The notes beneath the pieces were generated by a model, which worked only from the letters and a program-made list of their open reading frames with translations, did not search any database and was not told the DNA's origin. From assembly GCF_020711235.1 (NCBI RefSeq), contig NZ_JAJFAV010000006.1:186001-250000 (forward strand): DNA of 64,000 nucleotides. Reading direction: 5' to 3'. Positions within the stretch are counted from its first letter, which is position 1. Every line of letters begins with the position of its first letter. A program made the position numbers and the translations under genes. Positions 13,636 through 38,415 of the stretch are shown piece after piece. Source of the stretch: Hymenobacter sp. 15J16-1T3B (GTDB lineage: Bacteria; Bacteroidota; Bacteroidia; Cytophagales; Hymenobacteraceae).

Positions 13636-13653
13636 AACGTTCCCGACAACGTT
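13636..13653. promoter_or_regulatory. LacI-type operator, site 1
   Basis: The sequence AACGTTCCCGACAACGTT is an inverted repeat of AACGTT halves around a central CG, the arrangement bound by LacI-family dimers. It is 180 bp upstream of site 2. Confidence 0.75.
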
Positions 13654-13815
13654 TGCGGGAAAAGTAATATTCGGCGCCGGCTGGTCCAATCGACTGCGTG
13701 GGAGCAGCGCGCGGTTTTGGCGTAACGGGTCTGAAAGAAGTCCTATTGGTAGCCGAAAGTGTAAGAGTAAGCACTCACCCGCGGCGGGCTCGGCCCCGAA
13801 ACCCGGGCCGTTGGG

Positions 13816-13833
13816 AACGTTCCCGATAACGTT
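13816..13833. promoter_or_regulatory. LacI-type operator, site 2 (susC1 promoter)
   Basis: The sequence AACGTTCCCGATAACGTT differs from site 1 at one spacer base. Flanking bases (GGG before, TGCA after) also resemble the site at 23.9 kb. It is positioned to control susC1 transcription. Confidence 0.78.
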
Positions 13834-13968
13834 TGCATAAAAAAAACGCGTTTGGCGGGGTCCGAAGGCCTTCTTCCGGCCTGACCTTGAACGCACTGAA
13901 GCCGACTCCCACCCAGGTCGACCTCGTCCGTGAAGAGCCTCGTTCCCACCTCTTAATACTTCCAGTAC

Positions 13969-16900
13969 ATGCGACAAGGTTTACTCCTTAGTGCGGTGTT
14001 GGCCGTCACCTCGGCCACGCTGGCACAAGCCCAACAAACCCGGCCCATCAGCGGCCGGGTCGTCGACGCGACGTCCGGCGAAGGCCTGCCCGGCGTCACC
14101 GTTATCGTGAAGGGCACCAACAACGGCGCTTCAACCAACGAGAAGGGTGAGTTTCAGCTCACGGGCCCCGCCGGCGACGTGCAGCTGGTGTTCAGCTACG
14201 TGGGCTACCTCACCGAAACGGTGTCGGCCGCGGGCAAGGACAACGTGACCGTGCGCCTGCGCACCGACCAGAAAGCCCTGGACGAAGTCGTGGTCATCGG
14301 CTACGGTGCGGTCAAGCGCAGCGACGTAACCGGCGCCATCGTATCGGTGAAGGAGGAAGACCTGAAGAAGGTGCCCACGGCCAACGTGATGGAGTCCTTG
14401 CAGGGCCGCCTGCCCGGCGTCGACATCACCCGCAGCAGCGGCTCGGCGTCGTCGGGCGTGAACATCACCGTGCGCGGCAACCGCTCCCTGACGGCCAACA
14501 ACGGCCCGCTGTTCATCGTCGACGGCATTCAGTACAACTCCATCCAGGACATCAACCCCAACGACATTCAGTCGATGGAGGTGCTCAAGGACGCGGCCTC
14601 GACGGCGGTATACGGCTCGCGCGGGGCCAACGGCGTTATCATCGTGACGACGAAAAAAGGTGCAGCGGGCAAGACCACGGTGAGCTTCAACACCTACGTG
14701 GGGCAGACCGATGTGCAGTACTACCCCTACGTGAACGACGGGCCCAGCTACGTGGCCCAGAAGCGCGAAGCCAACCGCGCCACCGGCCTCTGGAGCAGCG
14801 AAGCCGACGACTCCAAAATCTTCACGCCCCTGCAGCTCGGCGCCATTCAGAACGGCACCTGGACGCGCTGGCCCGACGAGTTTCTGCGCAAGGGCAACCA
14901 GCAGGAGCACCAGATTGGCCTGGCGGGCGGCGGCGACAAAACGAAGTTCTACCTCTCGGCCAGCTACTACCGCGAGCAGGGCATTTTCCGCATGGACAAC
15001 CTGAAGCGCTACGCCACGCGCTTCAACCTGGAGCAGGCCGTTACCGACAAAATCAAGGTGGGTATGCAAAACCAGCTCACCTACTACAACCAGAACAACC
15101 GCCGCGACCCGCTCAACATTGCCAACAAGATTGACCCGCTCGGCGCCGCCCGCGACGAAAACGGCTCGGTCATCGTGTTTCCGAACAACGGCAAGGACAT
15201 CAACCCCCTGGCCGACGAGCTGGACGGCAACTACCTGAACAACACGCGCACCATCCGCACCTTCCTGACGGGCTACGCCAGCTACCAGATTCTGCCCTCG
15301 CTCAGCCTGCGCTCCAACGTGGGCCTGACCCTGGGCAACGCCCGGGTGGGCACATACTTCGGCTCGAACACCGTGGACCGCAACGGCAGCGTGCCGCTGG
15401 CCTCCTACGGCACGCAGATGGACACGAACTGGAGCTGGGAAAACATCCTGAACTACACCAAAACCTTCGGGGACCACAGCATCACGGCCACGGGCGTGAC
15501 TTCGCTGCTGACTTTTAAAACCGAGCAGTCCAAGGCCCAGGGCGCGAACCAGCTGCTGAGCTACCAGGGTTTCTCGGCCCTGGGCAATGCCAACCAGCAG
15601 GTGGTCATCAACAGCGGCTACGTGGCCAGCAACCTGGTTTCGTTCACCGGGCGCGTGCAGTACGGCTACAAGGGCCGCTACCTGCTCACCCTCACCGGCC
15701 GCGAAGACGGCTCCTCCAAGCTGCCCGGCAACCCCTGGGCTTTCTTCCCCTCGGCCGCCGTGGCCTGGCGCCTCATCGACGAGAACTTCGTGAAGGGCCT
15801 GCCGGTGCTCAGCGACTTGAAATTGCGCGCCTCCTACGGCCTGGCCGGCAACTACGACATTGCCGCCTACTCCTCGCAGACGCCTTTGAGCAAGGTGCCC
15901 TTCAGCTACGGCGAAACCTCGGCCCCGGGCTATTACCTGGGCGCGCGCCTGGGCAACCCCAACCTGAAGTGGGAAACCTCGCGCACCACCAACTTCGGCC
16001 TGGACTTCGGCCTGATTCGCAACCGCCTCACCGGCAGCGTGGACGTGTACAACACCCACGCCGAGAAGTTGCTCATCGACGCCTTCCTGCCCATGACCTC
16101 GGGGCAGAGCTTCAGCACCCGCAACGTGGGCGAGACGCGCAACCGCGGCATCGAGGTGGGCGTGAACGGCAGCGTCATCGACAACGGTAAGCTGCGCTGG
16201 AACGTGGGCCTGAGCTGGTTTAAAAACCAGGAGGAAATCCTGGCCCTGGCCACCGGCGCCAACGACATCAACAACGGCTGGTTTATCGGCTCGCCCACGC
16301 GGGTGTTCTACGACTACGAGAAAATCGGCATCTGGCAGACCGACGAGGCCGACCTAGCCCGCAGCTACGGGCAGAAGCCGGGGCAGATCAAGGTGAAGGA
16401 CCAGAACGGCGACGGGAAGATTTCGGCCACCGACGACCGCATCATCGTGGGCTCGGCCCTGCCGAAGTGGAACGGCAGCCTGAGCAGCGACCTGAGCTAC
16501 GCGGGCTTCGACCTCTCGTTCCAGTGGTTTGCCCGCATCGGCCAGACCATCAACTACGAGTACGCCCAGATTTTCGACCCGCAGGGCATCGAAAACAGCG
16601 GGCACCACGACTACTGGACGCCCGAAAACCCGACCAACGCCTACCCACGCCCCGACGCCTCGGTGTCGAAGAGCAGCATGCAGTACTTCAGCACCCTGGG
16701 CTACCGCGACGGGTCGTACGTGAAGCTGCGCGCCGCCACGCTGGGCTACAACCTGCCGGCTGCCTGGCTGGGCAAAATCGGCGTAGGCACGGCCCGGCTG
16801 TACGTGCAGGGCAAGAATCTGTGGGTAATCAGCAAGGTCAAGGACTACGACCCGGAGCGCGCGGCCGCGGCGGCCGCCTCCAACCCCGAAGCCACGGCCA

Positions 16901-17001
16901 CCACCTCGACTTCCACGCCGGCCGGCGCCCGCGTGGGCTTGGCGCCCCTGTCGAACCCGATTCCGCGCGTCGTCACCGTGGGCCTCAACCTCAGCTTCTA
17001 A
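13969..17001 (+). CDS. SusC/RagA-family TonB-dependent outer-membrane transporter (pectin locus, first copy)
   Basis: A 1010-residue outer-membrane protein. A signal peptide (to about residue 22, ending AQAQ) is followed by a carboxypeptidase-regulatory-like domain (RPISGRVVDATSGEGLPGV...), then the plug domain with DEVVVIGYG, LQGRLPGVDI and FIVDGIQYNS, and a long beta-barrel. SusC proteins form a lidded channel with their SusD lipoprotein and import oligosaccharides with TonB energy; here the likely cargo is oligogalacturonide because GH28 and GH105 follow. Near the C-terminus an Ala/Ser/Thr-rich insertion (about residues 965-988) interrupts the usual YDPE...P ending. Two operators lie upstream. 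The susD start is 22 bp beyond the stop. Confidence 0.96.
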   Translation: MRQGLLLSAVLAVTSATLAQAQQTRPISGRVVDATSGEGLPGVTVIVKGTNNGASTNEKGEFQLTGPAGDVQLVFSYVGYLTETVSAAGKDNVTVRLRTDQKALDEVVVIGYGAVKRSDVTGAIVSVKEEDLKKVPTANVMESLQGRLPGVDITRSSGSASSGVNITVRGNRSLTANNGPLFIVDGIQYNSIQDINPNDIQSMEVLKDAASTAVYGSRGANGVIIVTTKKGAAGKTTVSFNTYVGQTDVQYYPYVNDGPSYVAQKREANRATGLWSSEADDSKIFTPLQLGAIQNGTWTRWPDEFLRKGNQQEHQIGLAGGGDKTKFYLSASYYREQGIFRMDNLKRYATRFNLEQAVTDKIKVGMQNQLTYYNQNNRRDPLNIANKIDPLGAARDENGSVIVFPNNGKDINPLADELDGNYLNNTRTIRTFLTGYASYQILPSLSLRSNVGLTLGNARVGTYFGSNTVDRNGSVPLASYGTQMDTNWSWENILNYTKTFGDHSITATGVTSLLTFKTEQSKAQGANQLLSYQGFSALGNANQQVVINSGYVASNLVSFTGRVQYGYKGRYLLTLTGREDGSSKLPGNPWAFFPSAAVAWRLIDENFVKGLPVLSDLKLRASYGLAGNYDIAAYSSQTPLSKVPFSYGETSAPGYYLGARLGNPNLKWETSRTTNFGLDFGLIRNRLTGSVDVYNTHAEKLLIDAFLPMTSGQSFSTRNVGETRNRGIEVGVNGSVIDNGKLRWNVGLSWFKNQEEILALATGANDINNGWFIGSPTRVFYDYEKIGIWQTDEADLARSYGQKPGQIKVKDQNGDGKISATDDRIIVGSALPKWNGSLSSDLSYAGFDLSFQWFARIGQTINYEYAQIFDPQGIENSGHHDYWTPENPTNAYPRPDASVSKSSMQYFSTLGYRDGSYVKLRAATLGYNLPAAWLGKIGVGTARLYVQGKNLWVISKVKDYDPERAAAAAASNPEATATTSTSTPAGARVGLAPLSNPIPRVVTVGLNLSF

Positions 17002-17023
17002 CCATCCCCAAGCCACTTAAGTC

Positions 17024-18685
17024 ATGAAACGCACGACGACGAAACTGCTGCTGGGGACGGGCACGCTGCTGGCCTTGCTCGGCACCGCCACCAGCTGCGA
17101 CAAGCAACTGGAAGAAAACAACCCCTCGGGCCTCACCGCCGAAGGCGTATACACCACGCCCGCCGGCTTCGAGAGCCTCGTCAACGCCGCCTACTCCTAC
17201 AACCGCTGGTGGTACGGCAAGGAAGACGGCTTCAGCGCCTCCGAGCTGGGCACCGACCTCTGGCTGCGCGGCGCCGGCGACGTAAACCCCGAGCTGACGG
17301 AGTACACCACGAGCCTGCAATCCTCGTCGCGGGCCCTGGAGGTGCTCTGGGGCAAGCTCTACGCCGCCATCAACATCTGCAACACCGGCCTGGAATACCT
17401 CGACAAGTCGGGGCTGACGGACGCGCAGAAGAAAGTGCGCGGCGCCGAGCTGCGCATGCTGCGCGCCTTTTACTACTGGCACATTGTGGAAACCTGGGGC
17501 GGGGTGCACTTCACCACCGAGGCCACCAAAACGGTGCAAACCACGGCCAACCGCACGCCGGTGGACACGTTCTACCAGCAAATCATTGCGGACCTGGACT
17601 ACGCGGTGGCCAACCTGCCGAACACCACCACCGACTACGGCCGCGTGACCAAGCCCGCTGCCGAAGCCTTCCTGGCCAAGATTCACCTGACCCGCGGTAA
17701 CTACCAGCAGGCTGCCACGCTCTGCCAGCGCGTCATCACCAGCTACGGCTTTCAGCTGCAGCCGCGCTTTGCGGATCTGTGGTCGATGAGCAACCTGGAA
17801 AACCGGGAAATCATCTGGGCCGTCAACTACAGCAAGGACCTGAGCCTGAACGACCGCGTCGACGCCACGCTGTACCCGGACGGCCACCCGCGCGGCGGCA
17901 ACAACGGCCACCTGCTGTGGATGATGAAGTACGACGACCAGCCCGGCATGACCCGCGACATTGCCAACGGCCGCCCCTTCAACCGCTACATGCCCTCGCT
18001 GTTCCTGCTCAACCTCTTCGACGAGAGCAAGGACGCGCGCTACTTGGCGACGTTCAAGACGGTGTGGTTTGCTAACACCGCCGTGGCCGGCCGCCTGGCC
18101 GTGGGCGACACCGCCGTGTTTGCCACCAAGCGCGAAATTCCCAACGCGGTGGAAGCCACCAAGAACTACCGCACCTGGGACCTGAGCAAGGTGTACCGCG
18201 CCAACGGCACCGTCAGCGGCGACCGGCTGCACTACGTCTGCCTGCGCAAGTTCGACGACCCGACCCGCCCCACGGTGGCTGAGGAGCAGAGCGCCCGCGA
18301 CGCGTACTTGATTCGCCTCGCCGACGTGTACTTGCTCAACGCCGAGGCGCAGCTGCGGCTGGGCAACCCCGGCGCGGCCGTGCCGCTCCTCAACGCGGTG
18401 CGGCGCCGGGCGGCCATTCCGGGCAAGGAAGCCCAGATGGAAATAACCGCCAGCGACGTCACGCTGGACTTCATCCTCGACGAGCGGGCCCGGGAGCTGG
18501 CCGGCGAGCAGCACCGCTGGTTCGACCTTAAGCGCGTGGGCAAGCTTCTTGATAGGGTGCGTGCCTACAACCCCGAAGCCGGGCCCAACATCCAGAGTTA
18601 CCACCTGGTGCGGCCCATTCCGCAGCGCCAATTGGACGCCATTCTCAACAAAGACGAGTTCACGCAGAACCAAGGCTACCGCTAA
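17024..18685 (+). CDS. SusD/RagB-family outer-membrane lipoprotein (first copy)
   Basis: A 553-residue surface lipoprotein with the signal LGTATSC (lipid-anchored Cys at about residue 26) and the typical start ENNPSGLTAEGVYTT. The C-terminal RagB/SusD signature is visible as DERARELAGEQHRWFDLKR, and the protein ends with the family's IPQRQLDAI...QNQGY sequence. It forms the substrate-binding lid over the neighbouring SusC barrel. The gene is separated from the GH28 gene by a hairpin followed by T-runs, so enzyme expression may be lower than that of the transporter pair. Confidence 0.96.
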   Translation: MKRTTTKLLLGTGTLLALLGTATSCDKQLEENNPSGLTAEGVYTTPAGFESLVNAAYSYNRWWYGKEDGFSASELGTDLWLRGAGDVNPELTEYTTSLQSSSRALEVLWGKLYAAINICNTGLEYLDKSGLTDAQKKVRGAELRMLRAFYYWHIVETWGGVHFTTEATKTVQTTANRTPVDTFYQQIIADLDYAVANLPNTTTDYGRVTKPAAEAFLAKIHLTRGNYQQAATLCQRVITSYGFQLQPRFADLWSMSNLENREIIWAVNYSKDLSLNDRVDATLYPDGHPRGGNNGHLLWMMKYDDQPGMTRDIANGRPFNRYMPSLFLLNLFDESKDARYLATFKTVWFANTAVAGRLAVGDTAVFATKREIPNAVEATKNYRTWDLSKVYRANGTVSGDRLHYVCLRKFDDPTRPTVAEEQSARDAYLIRLADVYLLNAEAQLRLGNPGAAVPLLNAVRRRAAIPGKEAQMEITASDVTLDFILDERARELAGEQHRWFDLKRVGKLLDRVRAYNPEAGPNIQSYHLVRPIPQRQLDAILNKDEFTQNQGYR

Positions 18686-18695
18686 TTTCCTTTGC

Positions 18696-18745: not shown

Positions 18746-20410
18746 ATGAAAGCATTGTTTTCCCTGCTTCCCCTGGCCCTGAGCGGCGCGCTGCTCACCG
18801 CCCCGGAGGCAACCGCGCAGACCCCCAACTTGCCCGCGGTCAAAACCACCTCCTTCCGCGCCGATACCATTTCCATCGCCAAGCACGGCGCCGTGGCCGA
18901 TGGCCAGACGCTCAACACTGAAGCATTCCGCAAAGCCATTGACGCCTGCTCGCAGGCCGGCGGCGGCGTGGTGCTGGTGCCCCGCGGCATGTGGCTCACC
19001 GGCCCCATCGTGCTCAAAAACAACGTGAACCTGCACCTCGCCAAAGGCGCCTTGGTGCAGTTTTCGGCCAACCGCGCCGACTACCCGCTGATCAAAACCA
19101 ACTGGGAAGGCCTCGACGCGGTGCGCAACCTCTCGCCGCTCTACGGCGCCGACCTCGAAAACATTGCCATTACCGGCCAGGGCGTGTTCGACGGCGCCGG
19201 CGACGCCTGGCGCCCGGTCAAGAAGAGCAAGCTCAACGAAACGCAGTGGGACAAGCTGGTTTCTTCGGGCGGCGCGCTCAACGCCAAGAAAGACACCTGG
19301 TACCCCTCGGAGCAATCCTTGAAGGCCTCCACCATGGACAAGCCCGGCGTGCTGACGGCCTCGAAAACCGACATCAAGGACTTCGAGGACGTGAAGGACT
19401 TTCTGCGGCCCAACATGCTCAGCCTGCAGCGCTGCAAGCGCGTGCTGCTCGAAGGCTTCACCATCCAGAACTCCCCGGCCTGGACCATTCACCCGCTGCT
19501 CTGCGACGACATCATTATCCGCGGCGTAACGGCTAAAAACCCCTGGTACGGCCAGAACACCGACGCGCTGGACCTGGAGTCGTGCCGCAACGGCATCGTG
19601 GAGGACTGCGTGTTCGACGTGGGCGACGACGGCATCTGCATCAAGTCGGGCCGCGACGAGCAAGGGCGCAAGCGCGGCATCCCGACCGAAAACTTCATCT
19701 TCCGCAACGACCGGGTGTACCACGCCCACGGCGGCTTCGTGATTGGCTCCGAAATGTCGGGCGGCGCGCGTAACCTCTACGTGCAGAACTGCACCTTTAT
19801 GGGCACCGACGTGGGCCTGCGCTTCAAAACGGCCCGCGGCCGTGGCGGCATCGTCGAAAACATCTTCGTCGACGGCGTGGACATGACCGACATTGCCGGC
19901 CAGGCCATCCTGTTCGATATGTACTACGCTGCCAAGGACCCCGTGCCGCTGAAAGGCGAATCGACCGCGCCGCCCGAAATGAAGGCCGAGCCGGTAGGGG
20001 AGGGCACGCCGCAGTTCCGCAACTTCCAGATCAAGAACGTGACCTGCAAGGGCGCCGAAACCGCCATTCTGGTGCGCGGCCTGCCCGAAATGGCCATCAA
20101 AAACGTGAGCATCGAAAACGCGGTGCTGGAGTCGGACAAGGGCATGGTGTGCCAGGAGGCCGAGAACATCCGCCTCAAGAACGTGACCATCCTTTCCAAG
20201 GAAACCAAGCCGGTGCTGGAAATCCAGAATGCCCGCGACATCACGCTCGACGGCATCCGCTACGCCAACGGCGCCGACGTGCTGATGCGCGTGAGCGGCG
20301 ACCGGACTAAGAACATCAAGGTGCAGAACACCAACACCAAATCGGCCAAGAAAGACGTGGAAATGGGCGCCAACGCCCCCAAGAAAGCCGTGTCGATCAG
20401 CAAAAGCTAA
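18746..20410 (+). CDS. Glycoside hydrolase family 28 polygalacturonase
   Basis: A 554-residue exported right-handed beta-helix enzyme; signal peptide MKALFSLLPLALSGALLTA. GH28 motifs appear in order: NTDALDL (first catalytic Asp), GDDGICIKSG (Asp-Asp pair), HAHGGFVIGSE (the H-G motif) and LRFKTARG (the R-x-K motif). It should hydrolyse alpha-1,4 links of galacturonan in the periplasm or at the surface; exo action on oligosaccharides is common in this position of a locus. The start at 18746 is taken because the upstream in-frame stretch is the terminator hairpin. The next gene, GH105, follows palindromic element B. Confidence 0.93.
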   Translation: MKALFSLLPLALSGALLTAPEATAQTPNLPAVKTTSFRADTISIAKHGAVADGQTLNTEAFRKAIDACSQAGGGVVLVPRGMWLTGPIVLKNNVNLHLAKGALVQFSANRADYPLIKTNWEGLDAVRNLSPLYGADLENIAITGQGVFDGAGDAWRPVKKSKLNETQWDKLVSSGGALNAKKDTWYPSEQSLKASTMDKPGVLTASKTDIKDFEDVKDFLRPNMLSLQRCKRVLLEGFTIQNSPAWTIHPLLCDDIIIRGVTAKNPWYGQNTDALDLESCRNGIVEDCVFDVGDDGICIKSGRDEQGRKRGIPTENFIFRNDRVYHAHGGFVIGSEMSGGARNLYVQNCTFMGTDVGLRFKTARGRGGIVENIFVDGVDMTDIAGQAILFDMYYAAKDPVPLKGESTAPPEMKAEPVGEGTPQFRNFQIKNVTCKGAETAILVRGLPEMAIKNVSIENAVLESDKGMVCQEAENIRLKNVTILSKETKPVLEIQNARDITLDGIRYANGADVLMRVSGDRTKNIKVQNTNTKSAKKDVEMGANAPKKAVSISKS

Positions 20411-20569: not shown

Positions 20570-22513
20570 ATGAAAAACCGTTTTCGTCTTTTCCCGCTGC
20601 TGAGCCTGCTGGCCCTGAGTCCGGCCGCCGAAGCCCAGCAGACGCCCGCCGCCAAGCCCGCCGTGTCGCAGCGCATGGCCGACTCGTTTATGGGCTGGTT
20701 TCCGGATTCCATCGTCATCGGCAACCGCAAAACCGCCCGCTGGGACTACGAGCAGGGCCTGATGCTCAAGGCCCTGGAGCGCGTGTGGCAGCGCACCGGC
20801 GACCCGAAGTACTACAGCTACATCCAGAAGGACCTCGACCAGTTCATCAAGGACGACGGCACCATCCGGACCTACAAGCTGGAGGACTACAACCTCGACA
20901 ACCTCACCACCGGCCACGCCGTGCTGATGATGAGCCAGATTTCGCTGGGCAGCGCCAATGCCCAGCAGAAGTACATCAAGGCCGCCCAGCTGCTGCGCAA
21001 GCAGCTCGACGGGCAGCCGCGCACCAAGGCCGGCGGCTTCTGGCACAAGAAGGTGTACCCGAACCAGATGTGGCTCGACGGCCTCTACATGGCCGAGCCC
21101 TTCTACGCCGAGTACAGCAAGGTTTTCAACCAGCCCCAGGGCTTCGACGACGTAGCCAAGCAGTTCGAGCTGATTGAAAAGAACCTGGTCGACCCGAAAT
21201 CCGGCCTGCTCTACCACGGCTACGACGAGAGCCGGGAGCAGAAGTGGGCCAACAAAACCACCGGCCAGTCGCCTAACTTCTGGGACCGGGGCATGGGCTG
21301 GTACGCCATGGCCCTGGTGGACGTGCTCGACTACTTCCCGCAAAACCACCCGCAGCGCCAGCAGCTTATCAAGGACGTGCAGCGCCTCGCGCCGGTGCTG
21401 GTGAAGTATCAGGATGCCAAAACGGGCACTTGGTCCTTGGTGGTCGATCAGGCCACGCGCAAGGGCAACTACGCCGAGGCCTCGGGCAGCAGCATGTTCG
21501 TGTACTTCCTGCAGAAGGGCGTGCGCATGGGTTACCTCGACAAGAAGTACGCCGAGGCCGCCAAAAAGGGCTACGACGGCCTGCTGAAAACCTTCGTGGC
21601 CGAGGAAAACGGCGCGCTGGCCTTCAACGGCACCGTGAGCGTGGGCGGCCTGGGCGGCAACCCCTACCGCGACGGCAGCTACGAGTACTACCTCTCCGAG
21701 CCGCTGCGCAAAAACGACCTGAAAGGCGTCGGCCCGTTCATTCTGGCCAGCATCGAGATGGAAACGGCCGCCGACCAAAGCGTGGGCAAGGGCAAGACCG
21801 TGGGCCTCGACAACTACTTCAACCACGAGCTGCGCAAGAACCCCATCACCGGCCAGGAAGAAACCTGGCACTACACCTGGGACGACCGCACCCACGGTGG
21901 CTTCTACTTCTGGGGCACCCAGTGGCGCGACCTGGGCGCTACCACGAGCTACGTCACCACCGCACCCACCGCCGCTTCGCTGAAGAACGTGGGCGTGTAC
22001 ATCATCGTCGACCCGGACAGCAAAAAGGAAACGCCCAAGCCCAACTACGTGCAAGCGGCCGATGTGAAGGCTGTTACTGAGTGGGTGAAGGCTGGCGGCG
22101 TGCTGGTGCTCATGGCCAACGACACCTCGAACTGCGAAATTCCGCGCTTCAACAAGCTGGCCGAAGCCTTCGGCATGCACTTCGACGCGGTGAATCTGAA
22201 CATGGTCAAAGGCACGCAGTTTGAGCAGGGCCTGGTGGAGATGCCGGCTGGCAACGCGGTGTTCAAAACGGCCCGCGCCGCCTACATCAAAGAGCTGGCT
22301 CCGCTCACCCTGAGCGGCCCGGCCAAGCCCTTGGTGGCGAAGGACAAGTACGTCATCATGGCCACCGCCAAGGTGGGCAAGGGCACGGTCTTCGCCGTTG
22401 GTGACCCGTGGCTGTACACCGAGTACGTCGACGGCCGCAAGATCCCGGCGCAGTTCCAGAATTTCGCCGCCGCCAAGGACCTCGCGACCTGGCTGCTGCA
22501 GCAGGCGAAATAG
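20570..22513 (+). CDS. GH105/GH88-type unsaturated glucuronyl/galacturonyl hydrolase with C-terminal DUF4350-like domain
   Basis: A 647-residue exported protein (signal peptide to about AEAQ at residue 23). Residues ~35-390 form an alpha/alpha-barrel with GH105 hallmarks: ARWDYEQGLML, MWLDGLYMAEPF (catalytic Asp), YHGYDES and FWDRGMGWYAMALVDVL. These enzymes remove the unsaturated uronic acid left by pectate lyases through hydration of the double bond. The remaining ~250 residues (NVGVYIIVDPDSKK..., AGGVLVLMANDTSN, GTVFAVGDPWLY) look like a DUF4350/amidotransferase-like flavodoxin-fold domain of unknown role. The product would feed KdgF/KduI/KduD encoded beyond lacI. Confidence 0.9.
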   Translation: MKNRFRLFPLLSLLALSPAAEAQQTPAAKPAVSQRMADSFMGWFPDSIVIGNRKTARWDYEQGLMLKALERVWQRTGDPKYYSYIQKDLDQFIKDDGTIRTYKLEDYNLDNLTTGHAVLMMSQISLGSANAQQKYIKAAQLLRKQLDGQPRTKAGGFWHKKVYPNQMWLDGLYMAEPFYAEYSKVFNQPQGFDDVAKQFELIEKNLVDPKSGLLYHGYDESREQKWANKTTGQSPNFWDRGMGWYAMALVDVLDYFPQNHPQRQQLIKDVQRLAPVLVKYQDAKTGTWSLVVDQATRKGNYAEASGSSMFVYFLQKGVRMGYLDKKYAEAAKKGYDGLLKTFVAEENGALAFNGTVSVGGLGGNPYRDGSYEYYLSEPLRKNDLKGVGPFILASIEMETAADQSVGKGKTVGLDNYFNHELRKNPITGQEETWHYTWDDRTHGGFYFWGTQWRDLGATTSYVTTAPTAASLKNVGVYIIVDPDSKKETPKPNYVQAADVKAVTEWVKAGGVLVLMANDTSNCEIPRFNKLAEAFGMHFDAVNLNMVKGTQFEQGLVEMPAGNAVFKTARAAYIKELAPLTLSGPAKPLVAKDKYVIMATAKVGKGTVFAVGDPWLYTEYVDGRKIPAQFQNFAAAKDLATWLLQQAK

Positions 22514-23792: not shown

Positions 23793-23923
23793 GGGCGGGT
23801 GGGCTAGTGAAAGTGCAATTAATCGCGCCGCGTAGTTAAGGCTTTTTTTCGGCTCCGAAACAGGAGAGTGCAGCAGAGCGCGAAGGCCGAACTTGTGGCA
23901 AGGGAACAACTGCGCGAATTGGC

Positions 23924-23941
23924 AACGTTCCCGATAACGAT
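23924..23941. promoter_or_regulatory. LacI-type operator, site 3 (lacI-kduD intergenic)
   Basis: The sequence AACGTTCCCGATAACGAT matches site 2 except for one base in the last half. It lies between the divergent lacI and kduD genes, 125 bp before the kduD ATG and 131 bp before the chosen lacI start, so it could control both, including autoregulation. Confidence 0.78.
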
Positions 23942-29056: not shown

Positions 29057-29084
29057 TTCCCACTCGTTTCTCCCGCTCCTGATT

Positions 29085-31315: not shown

Positions 31316-31342
31316 CCCGCCGCGGTGCGGGAGAATAAGAAG

Positions 31343-33403
31343 ATGCGCGAGATGATGCGACGTTGGCTACACAAACTGGTACTCGGAGCGGGCCTTGCCC
31401 TGGTGAGTGGCGCGGCTGCGGCCCAGCAACTCACCGTGGCCGCCGATGGCTCAGGCCAGTTTAAAACGGTGCAGGAGGCCATCAACAGCCTGCCCGCCCA
31501 CGCCGACAAACCGCGCGTCATCAACATCAAAAAAGGCATTTACCGCGAGCAAATCTTCATCGACGGCAAAGACCACCTGACCCTACGTGGTGCCGGCGAG
31601 GCGCTGACCTGGATTCAGGTATCCTTGGCCCGGGACGCGGCCCGCTGCGCCGGCAACACCGACGACTGGGGCGTGGCCACCATCAACGTGCGCAACGCCC
31701 CCGACCTGACGCTGGAAAACCTGTCGGTGGTCAACAGCTACGGCCTCGACTCGCCCGGTGAACAGACGATTCCCTGCCCCGCCGACCCGACGGGCGCGAA
31801 GAAAATCAGCGGCACCACCCACCAGATGGCCCTGCGCACCTTCGCCGGCTCGTCGCGGATGAAGTTTGTGCACTGCACCTTCCGCGCCTACGGCGGCGAC
31901 ACGGTGAGCCCCTGGGACGGCGAAGGCGGGCAGTTCTACTTCAAGGACTGCACCATGGAAGGCGGCGTCGACTTTTACTGCCCGCGCGGCTGGGCCTACG
32001 CCGAAAACTGCCGCTTTATCTGTCACAGCACCTCGGCCGCCATCTGGCACGACGGCACCGGCAGCAAGGCCTCGAAAACCGTGCTCAAGAACTGCACTTT
32101 CGAGGGCGACAAAGGCTACAAGCTCGGCCGCTACCACCGCGAGTCGCAGTTTTACCTTATCGGCTGCAAGTTCGACGAGAACATGGCCGACGTTGACATC
32201 TACCACGCCCCCTCCGGGCCCGGCACCCCGCTGTGGGGCCGCCGCGTGTACTACGCCGACTGCCACCGCAAGGGCGGCGACTACGCCTGGCACTCCGACA
32301 ACCTCGTAACGGCCGAAGGGGCGCCCTCCGAAAAGCAAATCAACGCGGCCTGGACCTTCGGCGGCGCCTGGGACCCGGTTTCGGGCAAAGTAGGGGCGCC
32401 GGTGGCTACGGCCGAGGTTAGCAGAGATTCGGTGGCCGAGCGCATGCTGGTGTACCAGCGCGCCATCGGCGGCTGGCCCAAGGCGGTAGGGGAGAAGAAG
32501 GTGGATTATCAGCACCCGCTAACCCCGGCCGAGCGCGTGCAAACGCGCAAGGACGGAACCGTGCGCAAGGACGCCACCATCGACAACAACGCCACCACGC
32601 GTGAAATCACCTACCTGCTCGGGGCTTACAAGAAGACCAACAACCTGGCCTACCGGCAGGCGGCCGAGCGCGGCATCCGCTACCTGCTGCTGATGCAGCA
32701 GAAAAGCGGCGGCTTCCCGCAGTACTACCCCGACAGCTCCTCGTACCGTGCCCAGATTACCTACAACGACAACGCCATGATCAAGGCGCTGTGGGTGCTC
32801 AAGAACGTGGCCGATAAAAAGGGCGACTACGCCCTGGTCGACTTCAGCTTGGTGCCGGCGGCCCAGCAGGCGGTGGAACGCGGCGTGCAGTGCCTGCTGA
32901 AGACGCAGTACGTGCAGAACGGCACGCTCACCGCCTGGTGCGCCCAGCACGACCGCCGCACCCTGCTGCCCTGCAAGGCCCGGGCTTTTGAGCTGGCTTC
33001 CTTGAGTGGCATGGAAACGGTGGGCATTGTGGAATTTCTGATGGCCCAGCCCGAGCAGACGCCCGAAATCAAGCGCAGCGTCGACGCGGCGGTGGCTTGG
33101 CTCGGCAAGGTCAAAATCGAGGGTTTTACCGTGAAAGATGTGGACGACCCAGCCCAGCCGACAGGTAAGGACAGGAGAGTATTGCCCGAGGCCGGCTCTA
33201 CTTTGTGGGCACGTTTTTACGACCTGGAAACCAACCAACCAATCTACGTCGGCCGCGACGGGGTGAAGCACGCCCAGCTGGCCGACATCGAACACGAACG
33301 CCGCGTGGGCTACGCCTACCTCGGCACCTGGCCGGCCAAGTTGCTGACCAAAGAATACCCCCAGTGGCAACACCAGGGTGCGAACGGAAAGAGCGGATTA
33401 TAA
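31343..33403 (+). CDS. Exported fusion of CE8-type pectinesterase-like and PL10 pectate lyase domains
   Basis: A 686-residue two-domain protein with a signal peptide (MREMMRRWLHKLVLGAGLA...). Residues ~29-330 form a CE8-type beta-helix: GIYREQIFIDG, THQMALRTF, GGDTVSPWDG, GGVDFYCPRG and LGRYHRESQF. Compared with classical methylesterases the Q-D-T-L block is G-D-T-V and L-G-R-P-W is L-G-R-Y-H, while the two Asp and the Arg remain. Residues ~350-680 are PL10: TIDNNATTREI, GGFPQYYPDSS, ITYNDNAMI (calcium Asp), CKARAFELASLSGMET (catalytic Arg) and WARFYDLETNQPIYVGRDG. One protein could de-esterify and cut pectin. Starts at 31352, 31355 and a GTG at 31325 are alternatives. Confidence 0.9.
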   Translation: MREMMRRWLHKLVLGAGLALVSGAAAAQQLTVAADGSGQFKTVQEAINSLPAHADKPRVINIKKGIYREQIFIDGKDHLTLRGAGEALTWIQVSLARDAARCAGNTDDWGVATINVRNAPDLTLENLSVVNSYGLDSPGEQTIPCPADPTGAKKISGTTHQMALRTFAGSSRMKFVHCTFRAYGGDTVSPWDGEGGQFYFKDCTMEGGVDFYCPRGWAYAENCRFICHSTSAAIWHDGTGSKASKTVLKNCTFEGDKGYKLGRYHRESQFYLIGCKFDENMADVDIYHAPSGPGTPLWGRRVYYADCHRKGGDYAWHSDNLVTAEGAPSEKQINAAWTFGGAWDPVSGKVGAPVATAEVSRDSVAERMLVYQRAIGGWPKAVGEKKVDYQHPLTPAERVQTRKDGTVRKDATIDNNATTREITYLLGAYKKTNNLAYRQAAERGIRYLLLMQQKSGGFPQYYPDSSSYRAQITYNDNAMIKALWVLKNVADKKGDYALVDFSLVPAAQQAVERGVQCLLKTQYVQNGTLTAWCAQHDRRTLLPCKARAFELASLSGMETVGIVEFLMAQPEQTPEIKRSVDAAVAWLGKVKIEGFTVKDVDDPAQPTGKDRRVLPEAGSTLWARFYDLETNQPIYVGRDGVKHAQLADIEHERRVGYAYLGTWPAKLLTKEYPQWQHQGANGKSGL

Positions 33404-33414
33404 GAATACCACCC

Positions 33415-34938
33415 ATGAGCTACTTGTCTCGCAACATCGCGCTGGCCCACGGCGCCCATTCGGCCGTCAGCCTGCCGGAGGCCGCCCAGCTGGCCCTGCC
33501 CGAAAAGGTCCTGCAATTCGGTACCGGCGTGCTGCTGCGCGGCCTGCCCGACTACCTCATCGACAAAGCCAACCGCCAAGGCATCTTCAACGGCCGCATC
33601 GTGGTGGTGAAGTCGACCGACGGCGGCGACATCAACGCCTTTGCCCGCCAGGACGGCCTCTACACGCTCTGCATCCGCGGCATCGAGGACGGCCAGCAGG
33701 TGGAGGAAAACGTGGTCAGCTCGGCCATCAGCCGCGTGCTGTCGGCCAAAAGCCAGTGGGCCGAAGTGCTGCGCTGCGCCCAGTCGCCCGACCTGCAGGT
33801 AGTCATCAGCAACACCACGGAAGTGGGCATTCAGCTGGTCGCCGACGACGTGCGCCAGTCGCCGCCCGTGTCGTTTCCCGGCAAGCTGCTGGCCGTGCTC
33901 TACGTGCGCTGGAAAGCCTTTAAAGGCGACAAATCGAAAGGCCTGGTCATCGTGCCCACCGAGCTGGTGCCCGACAACGGCCGCAAGCTGGAAGCCATTC
34001 TGCTGGAGCTGGCCCACCGCAACGAGCTGGAAGCCGAGTTCATCGACTGGCTGGAAGCCGCCAACACCTGCTGCAACTCCCTGGTCGACCGCATCGTGCC
34101 GGGCCGCCCCGACGTGGGCGCCTACAACGCTTTGACCGAGGAGCTGGGCTACGACGACGACCTGCTGACCATGTCGGAGGTGTACCGCCTCTGGGCCATC
34201 GAAGGCGACGCGAAAGTGCGCCAGGTGCTGTCGTTTGAGCAGGCCGACAAGGGCGTTATCATTCAGCCCGACATCAACCAGTTTCGCGAGCTGAAGCTGC
34301 GCATGCTCAACGGCACGCACACCCTGAGCTGCGGCCTGGCGTTCCTGAGCGGCTTCGAGACGGTGCGCGGCGCGATGGAAGACGACGTGCTGGGCCAGTT
34401 CATCAGCCGCCTGATGGTGGACGATTTGCGCCCCGGCATCCCGTACAAAATCGACGAAACCGTGGCCCGCGACTTCGCCCGCCAGGTGCTGGACCGGTTC
34501 CGCAACCCCTTCATCGAGCACCGCTGGCTGGCCATCACGCTGAACTACACGGCCAAGATGCAGATGCGCAACGTGGCCACCCTGGTACACTACGCCGAGC
34601 AGCAGAAGCAGGCGCCGCAGCACGCGGCGCTGGGCTTTGCCGCCTATCTGCTCTTCATGCGTGCCACCGAGCAAAAGGACCACACCTGGTACGGCGAGCT
34701 GAACGGCGAGCAGTACCCCATCCAGGACGAAAAAGCCGGCTACTTCGCCGACCTCTGGCAGCGCCTGCAGCCCGCCGAATTGGTGAGCGTGGTGCTGCAC
34801 AACCAAGCCCTCTGGAACCACGACCTGACCGCCCTGCCGGGCTTCGCCAGCGCCGTGACCGGCTACCTGCAGCAGATGCTGGAAGAAGGCGTATACGCCA
34901 CCGTTGCCAAGCACCTGCGGAGCGAAGTGCCTGCCTAG
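33415..34938 (+). CDS. uxaB: Tagaturonate reductase (altronate dehydrogenase)
   Basis: A 507-residue member of the mannitol/tagaturonate dehydrogenase family. The Rossmann region starts at LQFGTGVLLRGLPDYLID; LNGTHTLSCGLAFL and WLAITLNYTAKMQMRNV are the substrate-domain signatures, including the catalytic Lys/Asn region. It reduces D-tagaturonate to D-altronate with NADH in the galacturonate branch. The start MSYLSRN at 33415 lies 11 bp past the previous stop; an upstream in-frame extension overlaps that gene. A palindromic element (copy D) separates it from uxaA. Confidence 0.94.
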   Translation: MSYLSRNIALAHGAHSAVSLPEAAQLALPEKVLQFGTGVLLRGLPDYLIDKANRQGIFNGRIVVVKSTDGGDINAFARQDGLYTLCIRGIEDGQQVEENVVSSAISRVLSAKSQWAEVLRCAQSPDLQVVISNTTEVGIQLVADDVRQSPPVSFPGKLLAVLYVRWKAFKGDKSKGLVIVPTELVPDNGRKLEAILLELAHRNELEAEFIDWLEAANTCCNSLVDRIVPGRPDVGAYNALTEELGYDDDLLTMSEVYRLWAIEGDAKVRQVLSFEQADKGVIIQPDINQFRELKLRMLNGTHTLSCGLAFLSGFETVRGAMEDDVLGQFISRLMVDDLRPGIPYKIDETVARDFARQVLDRFRNPFIEHRWLAITLNYTAKMQMRNVATLVHYAEQQKQAPQHAALGFAAYLLFMRATEQKDHTWYGELNGEQYPIQDEKAGYFADLWQRLQPAELVSVVLHNQALWNHDLTALPGFASAVTGYLQQMLEEGVYATVAKHLRSEVPA

Positions 34939-35008
34939 TTTGTTGTAAGAGGTAAAGTCATGTGGAGCGCAGCCGACTCGCGCGCTTCGTTGAACCGATA
35001 ATCCAGAA

Positions 35009-35107
35009 CGTCATGCTGAGCTTGTCGAAGCATCTCTACCGCTTTACCAGATAGAAATTACTATCCTGGTAAACACGCGAGATGCCTCGAATTCGCTCGG
35101 AATGACG
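35009..35107 (+). repeat. Palindromic intergenic element, ATGCTGAGC subfamily, copy D
   Basis: Starts CGTCATGCTGAGCTTGTCGA, includes AGCATCTCTACCGC, and ends with the inverted arm GAGATGCCTCGAATTCGCTC followed by GGAATGACG. It lies in the uxaB-uxaA gap and would fold as a long hairpin in the transcript. Confidence 0.8.
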
Positions 35108-35124
35108 GCCTAGAGCAACCCAAG

Positions 35125-36777
35125 ATGAAACACCTAGTAGCCCGAATCCACCCCCACGACAACGTACTCGTCGCCCTGCAGGACCTGCCGGCCGGCACCA
35201 CCATTCCGTGGGAGGACGGCGCCATCAAGACCGTCGCCGCCATTCCGGCCAAGCACAAGCTGGCCATGCAGGACTTTCAGGTCGGCGACTCCGTGACCAT
35301 GTACGGCGTGCTCGTGGGCAAAATCCGCGAAGCCATTCCGCAGGGCGGCCTGCTCACCACCTCGAACATCAAGCACGCCACCAACTCCTACGGGGAGCAC
35401 GGCGCCCACCGCGCTTCGTGGCCGGTGCCGAACGTGGAGCAGTGGCAGAACCGCACCTTCATGGGCTTCCACCGCTCCAACGGGCAGGTGGGCACGGCCA
35501 ACTACTGGCTGGTAATTCCGCTGGTGTTCTGCGAAAACCGCAACATCCAAGTACTGGAAGAAGCCCTGGTGAATGACCTCGGCTACGCCCGCAAGAAAAG
35601 CTACCAGCCGCAGACGCAGGAGCTGATTCAGCTGATGCAGGCCGGCAAGTCGGTGGAAGAAATCCTGCAGGCTGATCTGCAGACGGCCCTCGAAGCCCAC
35701 CAGAAGCCCAAGCTGTTCCCCAACGTGGACGGTGTGCGCTTCCTGACCCACGAAGGCGGCTGCGGAGGCATTCGGCAGGATGCGCAGACGCTCTGCGGCC
35801 TGCTGGCGGGCTACATCACCCACCCGAACGTGGCCGGCGCTACGGTGCTGAGCCTGGGCTGCCAGAACGCGCAGGTGTCGATGCTGCAGGACGAAATCCG
35901 CAAGCGCGACGCCAACTTCGACAAGCCGCTCTACATCCTGGAGCAGCAGAAAATCGGCACGGAGGAAAGCTTGGTGAGCACCGCCCTGCGCCAGACTTTC
36001 GCCGGCCTGATGCAAGCCAACGCCCAGCAGCGCCAGCCCGCGCCGCTGAGCAAGCTGTGCATCGGCCTGGAATGCGGCGGCTCGGACGGCTTCTCGGGCA
36101 TCTCGGCCAACCCCGCCGTGGGCCACGTGTCCGACATGCTGGTGGCCCTGGGCGGCTCGGTTATCCTGGCCGAATTCCCGGAGCTGAATGGCGTGGAGCA
36201 GGAGCTCGTGGACCGCAGCGTGGACAAAGAAACCGCCGAGCGGTTCAGCTCGCTGATGAAGGCCTATAGCGACTCCGCCGTGGCCGTCGGCTCGGGCTTC
36301 GACATGAACCCCTCGCCGGGCAACATCCGCGACGGTCTGCTGACCGACGCCATGAAGTCGGCCGGCGCCGCGCGTAAGGGCGGTTCCTCGCCGGTGGTGG
36401 CCGTGCTCGACTACCCCGAGCCCGTAACTAAGCCCGGCCTGAACCTGCTCTGCACCCCCGGCAACGACGTGGAATCGACCACGGCTGAGGTGGGCTCGGG
36501 CGCCAACGTGGTGCTCTTCACCACCGGCCTGGGCACTCCCACCGGCAACCCCATTGCCCCCGTGGTGAAGATTGCCACCAACACCCCGCTGGCCAAGCGC
36601 ATGCCCGACATCATCGACATCAACACCGGCACCGTCATCGACGGCGAGGAAACCATCGAGCAGGCCGGGGAGCGGATTCTGGACTACGTCATCCGCGTGG
36701 CCAGCGGCGAGGAAGTAGCCGCCGTGCGCCACGGGCAGACCGACTTCATTCCCTGGAAACGCGGCGTTTCGCTGTAA
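35125..36777 (+). CDS. uxaA: Altronate dehydratase
   Basis: A 550-residue protein with an N-terminal SAF domain (about residues 1-90, including GTTIPWEDGAI and REAIPQGGLLTTSNI) and the large UxaA/GarD catalytic domain: FHRSNGQVGTANYWLVIP, THEGGCGG (Cys region), SLGCQNAQV, LECGGSDGFSGISANP and LCTPGNDVES. It dehydrates D-altronate to 2-keto-3-deoxygluconate and is an iron-dependent enzyme in characterised relatives. It lies after uxaB; a hairpin follows its stop. Full-length, one protein instead of the split subunits seen in some hosts. Confidence 0.94.
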   Translation: MKHLVARIHPHDNVLVALQDLPAGTTIPWEDGAIKTVAAIPAKHKLAMQDFQVGDSVTMYGVLVGKIREAIPQGGLLTTSNIKHATNSYGEHGAHRASWPVPNVEQWQNRTFMGFHRSNGQVGTANYWLVIPLVFCENRNIQVLEEALVNDLGYARKKSYQPQTQELIQLMQAGKSVEEILQADLQTALEAHQKPKLFPNVDGVRFLTHEGGCGGIRQDAQTLCGLLAGYITHPNVAGATVLSLGCQNAQVSMLQDEIRKRDANFDKPLYILEQQKIGTEESLVSTALRQTFAGLMQANAQQRQPAPLSKLCIGLECGGSDGFSGISANPAVGHVSDMLVALGGSVILAEFPELNGVEQELVDRSVDKETAERFSSLMKAYSDSAVAVGSGFDMNPSPGNIRDGLLTDAMKSAGAARKGGSSPVVAVLDYPEPVTKPGLNLLCTPGNDVESTTAEVGSGANVVLFTTGLGTPTGNPIAPVVKIATNTPLAKRMPDIIDINTGTVIDGEETIEQAGERILDYVIRVASGEEVAAVRHGQTDFIPWKRGVSL

Positions 36778-36778
36778 G

Positions 36779-36841
36779 AAGCGTGGGGCCGCTCCGGAAC
36801 CGTTTGCGTGAATAAACACGGCGCCGGAGCGGCTTGCTTCA
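36779..36841 (+). terminator. Hairpin after uxaA
   Basis: The arms AAGC...GGCCGCTCCGG and CCGGAGCGGC...GCTT pair over about 14-15 positions around a 26-nt loop. There is no T-run directly after the stem, so it may be an mRNA-stabilising or partial-stop structure rather than a true terminator. Confidence 0.4.
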
Positions 36842-36925
36842 TCGGATGCTTACCCGGGTTAAATACTTTTACCGACCCACCCAGCCGGCGCTTGCAGGAG
36901 CCGACGGCTTTGCTCAGAATACCCT

Positions 36926-38365
36926 ATGAAACCCTTCCTGAACGACGATTTTCTGCTGCAGACCGCCACGGCGCGCACGCTCTACCACGAGCATGCCCGG
37001 CAGATGCCCATCATCGACTACCACAACCACCTGTTGCCCGACCAGATTGCCGAAGACAAGCAGTTCGACAACCTGACGCAGATCTGGCTCTACGGCGACC
37101 ATTACAAGTGGCGCGCCATGCGCACCAACGGCATCGATGAGCGCTACATCACCGGCGACGCGTCGGACTGGGAGAAGTTTGAAAAGTGGGCTGAGACGGT
37201 GCCGCAGACCCTGCGCAACCCGCTCTACCACTGGACGCACCTGGAGCTGCAGCGCTACTTCGGCGTGACGGAGCTGCTCAACAAGGAGTCGGCCCGCCGC
37301 ATCTACGACCACTGCTCGGCCTTGCTGCGCACGCCGGAGTACTCGGTGCGCAACCTGCTCAAGAAGATGAACGTGCAGACGCTCTGCACCACCGACGACC
37401 CCTCGGACTCTCTGGAGCACCACCGTGCCATTGCCGCCGACCCCTTCGGCGTGCAGGTGCTGCCCACCTTCCGCCCCGACAAAGCCATGTCGCCGGAAGA
37501 TGCCGCCGCTTACAACGCCTACCTGGATAAGCTGGGCGCTTCGGCCGCCGTGGAAATCCTGAACTACCAGGACCTGCAAACGGCCCTGCGCGTGCGCCAC
37601 GACTACTTTGCCGCCCTGGGCTGCCGCCTCTCCGACCACGGCCTGGAGCAGATCTACGCCGCTGATTACACCGACGCCGACATCACCCGCATCTTCGCCA
37701 AAGTGCGCGGCGGCGAGACCTTGGAGCGCGCGGAAGTGCTGCAGTTCAAGTCGGCCATGCTGGTGTTCTTGGCGGAGCTGGACTGGGAGAAAGGCTGGAC
37801 CCAGCAGTTTCACCTCGGTGCCCTGCGCAACAACAACGCCCGCATGCTGCGCCAGCTCGGCCCCGACACCGGCTGGGACTCCATCGGCGACTTCCAGCAG
37901 GCCCCGGCCCTGGCCAAGTTCCTCGACCGCCTCGACACCCAGGACAAGCTGGCCAAGACCATCCTCTACAACCTGAACCCCTCCGACAACGAGCTGTTCG
38001 CCACCATGATTGGCAACTTCCAAGACGGGTCGGTGGCCGGCAAGATGCAGTTCGGCTCGGGCTGGTGGTTCCTGGATCAGAAGGACGGCATGGAGCGGCA
38101 GATCAACGCGCTGTCGAACATGGGTCTGCTGAGCCGCTTCGTGGGCATGCTCACCGACTCGCGCTCCTTCCTCTCGTACCCGCGCCACGAGTACTTCCGC
38201 CGCATCCTCTGCAACATGCTCGGCAACGACGTGGAAAATGGCGAGCTGCCAGCCGACATGGAGCTGCTGGGCCAGATGGTCGAGAACATCTGCTACGGCA
38301 ACGCCAACGAATACTTCGGCTTCTCGAAAGTGGCCGAAACCTCCTCGGTAGCGGCCGAGGCTTAG
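36926..38365 (+). CDS. uxaC: Uronate isomerase (glucuronate/galacturonate isomerase)
   Basis: A 479-residue amidohydrolase-fold isomerase. The metal motif is DYHNHLLPDQIA (H-x-H), with TTDDPSDSLEHH, GGRVL-type segments replaced by FHLGALRNNN, and the C-terminal RHEYFRRILCNMLGNDVENG typical of UxaC. It converts D-galacturonate to D-tagaturonate (and D-glucuronate to D-fructuronate), the step before UxaB. The order uxaB-uxaA-uxaC gives a complete isomerase pathway. The next feature is a terminator hairpin that contains operator site 4. Confidence 0.95.
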   Translation: MKPFLNDDFLLQTATARTLYHEHARQMPIIDYHNHLLPDQIAEDKQFDNLTQIWLYGDHYKWRAMRTNGIDERYITGDASDWEKFEKWAETVPQTLRNPLYHWTHLELQRYFGVTELLNKESARRIYDHCSALLRTPEYSVRNLLKKMNVQTLCTTDDPSDSLEHHRAIAADPFGVQVLPTFRPDKAMSPEDAAAYNAYLDKLGASAAVEILNYQDLQTALRVRHDYFAALGCRLSDHGLEQIYAADYTDADITRIFAKVRGGETLERAEVLQFKSAMLVFLAELDWEKGWTQQFHLGALRNNNARMLRQLGPDTGWDSIGDFQQAPALAKFLDRLDTQDKLAKTILYNLNPSDNELFATMIGNFQDGSVAGKMQFGSGWWFLDQKDGMERQINALSNMGLLSRFVGMLTDSRSFLSYPRHEYFRRILCNMLGNDVENGELPADMELLGQMVENICYGNANEYFGFSKVAETSSVAAEA

Positions 38366-38376
38366 TAGAAAGCCAG

Positions 38377-38415
38377 CTCCGGCAACGTTTGCGACAACGT
38401 TGCCGGAGTTTTTAT
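38377..38415 (+). terminator. Rho-independent terminator after uxaC, overlapping operator site 4
   Basis: A 13-bp perfect stem (CTCCGGCAACGTT / AACGTTGCCGGAG) with a 6-nt loop is followed by a T-run. It begins 12 bp after the uxaC stop. The inner stem and loop read AACGTTTGCGACAACGTT, identical in pattern to the LacI-type operators. Confidence 0.85.
38384..38401. promoter_or_regulatory. LacI-type operator, site 4 (uxaC-kdgK intergenic)
   Basis: Perfect AACGTTnnCGnnAACGTT, 121 bp before the kdgK ATG. It could let the LacI protein control a separate kdgK-kdgA-exuT transcript. The match could partly be a by-product of the terminator palindrome, so confidence is lower than for sites 1-3. Confidence 0.6.

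Follow-up and report, generated by a model that had tools for sequence, protein, structure and literature searches.

A predicted LacI-type operator of fixed polarity and fixed distance to a promoter-like element in a pectin regulon of Hymenobacter

Introduction

The stretch of DNA analyzed here, 64,000 nucleotides of Hymenobacter sp. 15J16-1T3B (positions 186,001 to 250,000 of contig NZ_JAJFAV010000006.1, denoted contig C39, in a genome of 6.3 Mb; hereafter the window), carries a pectin locus with a gene for a LacI-family regulator and copies of a candidate operator. Among the proteins that serve for comparison, Cra (FruR) of Escherichia coli activates gluconeogenic genes. The closest described systems, as given in the passages of the cited papers used here, are those of Bacteroidota, where LacI-family control of hexuronate genes has been predicted computationally (KdgR BT0487, UxaR BT0824, UxuR and UxmR; PMC3878776 Table 2), so that a LacI-run pectin locus is not the novelty that a preliminary description of this locus had taken it for. 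The Bacteroides proteins KdgR (BT0487) and UxaR (BT0824), likewise of the LacI family and predicted to control glucuronate and galacturonate catabolism (PMC3878776; PMC4052901), are classed with monosaccharide use, only few periplasmic or extracellular genes being given for KdgR, and the pectin loci are assigned to hybrid two-component systems (PMC3878776). The Hymenobacter protein is set beside BT0487 and BT0824 by description.

The other relatives differ in several respects. Cphy2742 of Clostridium phytofermentans, a LacI/GalR protein predicted to control pectin genes from an operator before 22 genes and its own gene, comes from the Clostridia and has a cre-like operator (TGAAAGCGCTTTCA-like; PMC5171806). 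CcpA of Bacillus subtilis, also of the LacI/GalR group, can act as an activator of certain genes, in a helix face-dependent manner, where the cre box lies upstream of the -35 element, but is a global catabolite regulator (PMC3463425). E. coli GalR, bound at the gal operator OE, contacts the C-terminal domain of the RNA polymerase alpha subunit (alpha-CTD), whereby P1 is inhibited and P2 activated; what is described is one operon, and not a single geometry shared by an entire regulon (PMC4693257). The operator described below spans 24 bp, compared with 16–22 nt for the usual LacI-family sites, and its two boxes lie 12 bp apart (a spacing fixed by the search patterns), compared with ~13 bp for the overlapping E. 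coli GntR-type sites found upstream of 110 operons (PMC4052901 section 9).

Computation on this locus, its genome and its relatives finds a polar site, a regulon, a linkage to lacI and a fixed distance from the site to a promoter-like element. The fixed distance is the feature that the preliminary description missed, and it does not appear in the passages on KdgR and UxaR in PMC3878776 and PMC4052901. No account of a Hymenobacter pectin LacI regulon or of fixed-distance LacI activation in Bacteroidota was found in the titles and abstract openings of the open-licence literature. The new part is the fixed-distance polar operator; the type of LacI regulator has already been published, as a prediction, for Bacteroidota.

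A polar element in the window and in relatives

The preliminary description had reported four copies of an 18-bp palindrome, AACGTTNNCGNNAACGTT, and a scan of the window recovers all of them, with exact matches at 13636, 13816 and 38384 and one mismatch at 23924. When up to three mismatches are allowed, the window yields 12 matches, far above shuffled sequences (1.92 ± 1.38; a count of 12 is reached in none of 100 shuffles). The supposed equivalence of the four copies is rejected. Three of them share AACGTTCCCGAYAACGWTTGC, which at up to three mismatches matches the window only at 13636, 13816 and 23924, each time exactly (mean of 0.00 in 100 shuffles), and are members of one conserved element; the copy at 38384 is ambiguous, differing from the others and apparently being at least also a terminator.

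13633..13656, forward strand: predicted operator copy, the upstream member of a tandem pair before susC1, with two mismatches to the 24-mer described below
13813..13836, forward strand: predicted operator copy serving susC1, with an A tail at 13837–13845
23921..23944, forward strand: predicted operator copy in the gap that separates lacI from kduD, directed toward the latter, with an A/T tail at 23945–23953
38381..38404, forward strand: fourth AACGTT..AACGTT copy, a stem-loop with a T-run after uxaC and candidate operator for kdgK

The first copy has an A-rich tail at 13657–13665, and its core is kept in a relative (G020). The RNA fold z-scores of the copies at 13636, 13816 and 23924 lie between -0.5 and -1.1.

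The element is not the plain 18-bp palindrome of the preliminary description but is longer and polar: it consists of GGCAWCGTTNCCGRYAWCGWTTGC followed by an A/T tract and is directed at the served gene. A logo was built from 139 unique sites with at most two mismatches, after the removal of duplicates and of sites near locus ends. With the site start as position 1, it reads Y at 0, GGCAWCGTT(C/G)CCGRYAWCGWTTGC at 1–24 and R at 25, followed by an A/T tract at 27–33 and then little, apart from weak T's at 47–48 and 52–54, until a TAAYYTT-like block at 70–76. Conservation and asymmetry at 1–24 are partly built in, as these positions are mostly fixed by the search pattern; positions 0, 25–33 and 70–76 are free. 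The A/T fraction at 27–33 is 0.91 in the Hymenobacteraceae flanks and 0.97 in those of other families, whereas the mirror-image positions have 0.40 and 0.60, respectively; a comparable tract is not seen in the upstream flank. The polarity is not a product of the search because a symmetric core pattern, applied to 54 sites upstream of lacI, still finds GCAA at the end away from lacI in 53 of the 54 and TTGC at the lacI-side end in only 5, with A/T fractions of 0.97 and 0.56 beside the respective ends. The distance from the site end to the ATG of the first plausible open reading frame (ORF) has a median of 128 bp (136 of the 139 sites; simple ORF caller).

The sites in the window are near-palindromic with a central CG, and the operator of LacI type that had been proposed stands as a prediction from the sequence; the central CG is part of every search pattern, and its constancy among sites proves nothing. 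About its central CG, the 24-mer is a palindrome of 24 bp; about each AWCGWT, it consists of two boxes, G..AWC|GWT..C, with centers 12 bp apart. The operator would be either one 24-bp dimer site or two overlapping dimers. At a few loci, three boxes stand in a row (L115; L163–L165). The triple boxes of L163–L165, loci of LacI paralogs with 46–48% identity, are AWCGWT-like, follow one another every 12 bp and precede the genes of this other LacI group, so that a period of 12 bp may be a general property of the boxes of such LacI proteins. Four genomes of the genus denoted g4, which belongs to the family of the window, with LacI proteins ~54% identical, have near-perfect palindromes upstream of lacI. 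The better conservation of the promoter-side half of the 24-mer in this genus was dropped as evidence, the search pattern having demanded TTGC there.

Constant spacing between the site and a promoter-like element

Bacteroidota promoters have a -33/-7 consensus, by reference to which the promoter-like element and the -70 place of the site are assigned here. In the genome of origin, TTTG-N18-20-TANNTTTG occurs 53 times, compared with 13 in the reversed control, which fits this consensus. The distance was assessed in 94 Hymenobacteraceae flanks that were left after removing those of at least 50% identity, and in 30 non-redundant sites (out of 44) from loci titled outside Hymenobacteraceae, all of which adjoin lacI. 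Counted from the start of the site, the pattern TANNNTT stands at 70–71 in 28 of the 94 Hymenobacteraceae flanks (16 at 70 and 12 at 71), compared with a mean of 0.61 and a maximum of 4 for the other two-base windows. In the other families, the same holds for 24 of the 30 sites (14 at 70 and 10 at 71; mean of 0.44 and maximum of 3 elsewhere), and TANNNTTG is found in 20 of the 30. Several sites of genus g4 that are not beside lacI show, when read by eye, TAnnnTT(G) at or near 70.

A matrix trained with each gene family left out in turn places its best match at 68–73 in 46 of the 94 flanks (2.8 expected), albeit unevenly: 12 of 12 sites before kduD-like genes qualify, compared with 15 of 35 in one lyase-type group and 2 of 8 in another. 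The distance holds although the served gene differs. At the 80 lacI loci described below, the divergent genes include kduD at 23 loci, kduI at 23, a SusC homolog at 23, uxaB at 6 and GH28 at 5, and 20 of the loci have no homolog nearby of the 16 window proteins searched.

Link to the LacI-family protein

The candidate regulator is encoded in the middle of the locus.

22770..23792, reverse strand: LacI-family regulator of 340 amino acids with an inferred TTG start, a helix-turn-helix at residues 5–50 and a sugar-binding domain (PF00356, PF13377, PF00532)

Both its helix-turn-helix domain (PF00356, 47.0 bits) and its sensor domain (PF13377, 123.8 bits) score above the curated Pfam cut-offs. That this protein governs the locus had been assumed at the outset; the comparative evidence makes it the best candidate and a likely binder of the operator. 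In 150 sampled genomes of the family, with the motif called at no more than one mismatch and the ortholog at E <= 1e-140 (a cut-off placed at a gap in the list), the motif is present in 56 and the ortholog in 53. Both occur in 51 genomes, the ortholog only in 2, the motif only in 5 and neither in 92, i.e. 7 discordant genomes (Fisher p 1.2e-31); within a single genus (g5), the respective numbers are 45, 2, 4 and 15 (p 1.7e-9), and both p values ignore shared ancestry. The ortholog-only genomes are G089 and G091, in the latter of which a more divergent site adjoins lacI. The motif-only genomes are G016, where a lacI fragment, 82% identical, adjoins a site, G034, which carries the 54% LacI homolog, and G107, G129 and G131. 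The ortholog appears to be broken in two loci, by truncation to the fragment in G016 (L162) and by in-frame TGAs in G031 (L157), with operator copies remaining.

Named genomes were also scanned with an alignment of the LacI protein and the 80 best loci were kept; their titles include Hymenobacter, Spirosoma, Larkinella, Emticicia, Dyadobacter, Runella, Chitinophagaceae, Pedobacter, Mucilaginibacter and others. Of these 80 closest named relatives, 54 carry the core A.CG.T..CG..A.CG.T in the 700 bp before lacI. It is found in none of the 80 control stretches, which start 300 bp inside lacI and are mostly coding (full 700 bp in 79 of the 80). With a looser pattern, a site is found upstream of lacI at 37 of the 40 ortholog loci inspected. 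Residues 18–25 of the recognition helix (STVSRALR) are invariant in 23 aligned orthologs. The genome contains nine other LacI genes, and one of the six inspected has a related but distinct palindrome, GGAAACGTTTTCGAAAACGGTTCC. The paralogous loci L163–L166 have no TANNNTT at 70, with a near match in L166.

The regulon in the genome

The 18-bp motif occurs at 6 exact places and 6 with one mismatch (each place counted once), and these genome-wide counts rule out an even spread. At up to two mismatches, there are 30 places, compared with 14 for the reversed control, whereas the 24-base asymmetric pattern at up to three mismatches yields 15 compared with 3. Of these 15 places, 10 are exact, 2 have one mismatch, 2 have two and 1, the 38384 copy, has three. 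One of the two-mismatch places (C40:194780), which lacks the A/T tail and is followed by a doubtful ORF, is probably a chance match, and the genome holds about 13 copies.

Twelve places are within one mismatch of the 24-mer, ten of them on other contigs or far away on the same contig. Judged by the served genes, which are mostly pectin-related, the proposed pectin regulon appears sound, but it is not confined to this locus. Eleven downstream ORFs lie outside the window, and ten were searched against Pfam, L031 (doubtful site and ORF) being left out. They comprise three proteins with Pectate_lyase_4 (PF00544), a pectinesterase (PF01095), a GDSL esterase, a GntR-type regulator, a GFO/IDH oxidoreductase, two with a secretion tail only and one without a hit. 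Pectin or rhamnose use fits 6 of the 7 nameable genes and, because these non-window ORFs are mostly pectin-related, the regulon extends well beyond the window.

The GntR-type regulator gene (L014:8201-9211, contig C14 of genome G000), which has a partial sugar-binding domain, is preceded by an operator copy, and genes that by eye resemble those for rhamnose isomerase and rhamnose kinase adjoin it. In three further genomes, too, a gene of this family is preceded by the site (cluster 5, with four sites). An operator before this gene suggests a cascade from pectin to rhamnose control.

The copy at 38384

The fourth copy lies ~18 bp after the uxaC stop codon and makes up the central part of a perfect stem, with TTTTT behind it (-27.2 kcal/mol in RNA folding, z -5.8). 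Stem-loop, T-run and retention in relatives, the hallmarks of an intrinsic terminator, are all found here; a generic terminator scan of the region returns 5 sites with 5.0 expected and sees 38384 only as a 5-bp version. On balance, it is only slightly favored that this copy is a plain uxaC terminator that resembles the operator by chance. The stem and T-run are kept in 4 of 5 same-genus relatives (G010 being without them), in one of which the outer stem carries a paired change, CTCC/GGAG to CACC/GGTG, and the copy has three mismatches to the 24-mer and lacks the signature of TTGC and A-tract. The reading as a terminator only is softened by other features: the central CG, which lies in the loop, is kept in all four relatives, the kdgK ATG is 117 bp beyond, CGACCTTG stands at position 70 and all four relatives have CGAYYTTG at 69–70. 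The copy is taken to be a terminator that may also serve kdgK as an operator. A further LacI-like box around GCAAACGATTGT (38422–38433), between the hairpin and kdgK, is nearly unchanged in the close relatives L275–L277.

Mode of action

In the proposed mechanism, the LacI protein would bind the polar 24-bp near-palindrome with its central CG ~70 bp upstream of the putative transcription start. On the promoter side, the site would be followed by the 7-base A/T tract, a poor -33 box and the TANNNTT(G) -7-like element. A pectin-breakdown intermediate, e.g. 2-keto-3-deoxygluconate or its 5-keto precursor, would change the state of the regulator, a proposal for which the kduI/kduD neighbors are the sole basis. 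The DNA-bound protein would help the alpha-CTD to dock on the A/T tract, which could be its docking place. This would be a class-I-type activation, and it would take in the kdu genes, SusCD uptake, the pectate lyases and the pectinesterase, as well as the regulator gene that adjoins the rhamnose genes. Class-I activators have their sites at a set distance ahead of the core promoter, and the arrangement found here is of this kind, with the promoter element itself being putative and weak at the window copies; the geometry is activator-like, and the sign of regulation is a prediction. A polar site held at one distance over unrelated flanks argues for polymerase contact rather than simple blocking, and such contact by the LacI protein is likely. 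Thus, class-I-type activation of the pectin genes by a LacI-type protein from a polar, fixed-distance operator is considered probable, with confidence that is better than even but well short of firm.

Several observations weigh against this account. LacI-family proteins are mostly repressors. No window site has an exact TANNNTT at 70–71: the 13816 copy has TGACCTTG at 13882–13889 (position 70), one letter from TANNNTTG, the 23924 copy has a weak -7-like AAAATTAA at 23990, and the 13636 copy has nothing -7-like at 13702, where the element would be expected. Throughout the genome, TANNNTT is found at 69–72 in 4 of 14 sites, and because of this low number a single genome would hardly reveal the fixed distance; at 70–71, the pattern is missing from 66 of the 94 Hymenobacteraceae flanks and from 6 of the 30 others. 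The matrix trained on Hymenobacteraceae places its best match at 67–73 in only 3 of the 30 other-family sites (1.05 expected), because it also matches A/T-rich background, and the result in those families therefore rests on the simple TANNNTT pattern. In Hymenobacteraceae, TTG is more frequent at 53 (11 of 94) than at the expected -33 place, 47 (7 of 94); in the other families, it is found at 47 in 9 of 30, and TTTG at 46–48 in 3 of 94 and 5 of 30, respectively. The -70 position is itself deduced from the consensus, and the transcription starts are predictions. As for the regulator, the strict core is absent within 700 bp of lacI in 26 of the 80 relatives, including Hymenobacter loci with LacI proteins 76–78% identical (L201, L203, L204 and L206), a site is lacking upstream of lacI even with the looser pattern at 3 of the 40 ortholog loci (L086–L088), and three genomes (G107, G129 and G131) each have one motif match but no ortholog. 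Furthermore, LacI and the pectin genes may have been lost together, so that some other co-inherited factor may fit the co-occurrence as well.

The rival that survives best keeps the same protein and sites but turns the sign around: the regulator, bound next to the A/T tract, would block docking of the alpha-CTD or trap the polymerase through contact until a pectin intermediate releases it. Fixed distance and polarity reveal dependence on the promoter and not the sign of the effect, repression is what most family members do, and both outcomes are seen with GalR at OE, which inhibits P1 and stimulates P2 through the alpha-CTD (PMC4693257). Activation appears likelier because the -33 box is poor, as is expected of activator-dependent promoters, although the -33 place is itself an assignment from the consensus; such contact repression is accordingly regarded as unlikely, if still a serious contender.

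A classical repressor acting by steric hindrance, with the fixed distance as a by-product of shared promoter ancestry, is very unlikely. It would suit a member of the LacI family, and the median of 128 bp to the start codon falls inside the 30–140 bp range of more than 75% of LacI-family sites (PMC4052901). However, the distance holds among flanks of less than 50% identity and across different downstream genes and families, and the site lies upstream of the entire putative core promoter. Least probable of all is that the motif is bound by another regulator co-inherited with the pectin genes: co-occurrence cannot separate lacI from genes lost alongside it, and activators of the AraC type, too, typically have polar sites at distances of this order, but a near-palindrome with a central CG is the LacI-family signature (PMC4052901), 54 of 80 relatives have the site before the lacI gene itself although their neighboring genes differ, and no regulator besides LacI is apparent by eye among the proteins translated at 11856–43593.

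Genes of the locus

Apart from lacI, the locus comprises the following genes.

11897..13438, reverse strand: aldehyde dehydrogenase, divergent from susC1 (PF00171)
13969..18685, forward strand: SusC/SusD-like pair 1, named by eye from the translation
18746..20410, forward strand: GH28 polygalacturonase-like (PF00295)
20570..22513, forward strand: GH88 family, unsaturated uronyl hydrolase-like (PF07470)
24067..25728, forward strand: kduD-like dehydrogenase, named by eye, and KduI (PF04962)
25769..30965, forward strand: SusC/SusD-like pair 2, named by eye from the translation
31325..33403, forward strand: pectinesterase fused to a Pec_lyase domain (PF01095 and PF09492)
33415..38365, forward strand: uxaB-like, uxaA and uxaC, hexuronate catabolism (PF01232/PF08125, PF20629/PF04295, PF02614)
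38522..41608, forward strand: kdgK-like kinase, 2-keto-3-deoxy-6-phosphogluconate aldolase (PF01081) and hexuronate transporter-like protein of the major facilitator superfamily; kinase and transporter named by eye

A single protein, that at 31325–33403, unites pectinesterase and Pec_lyase domains. Elsewhere in the window, a transfer-messenger RNA gene is found at 58096–58464 on the forward strand, with the tag GDYSYAMAA.

Significance

It is about an even chance that a LacI branch found in several families of Bacteroidota acts solely as a class-I activator, with a polar double-box operator of 24 bp centered near -70, an A/T tract for docking of the alpha-CTD and a weak core promoter, and that it turns on the entire pectin system and, through the GntR-type gene, a rhamnose branch. 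LacI is the textbook repressor, and the conserved polar sites at a fixed distance represent a large natural data set on contact between LacI proteins and RNA polymerase, in a phylum whose promoters are of an unusual type. For work in Bacteroidota, they could supply a promoter design that is both inducible and portable. In the use of plant polysaccharides, the regulator would be a simple one-component system in place of hybrid two-component control.

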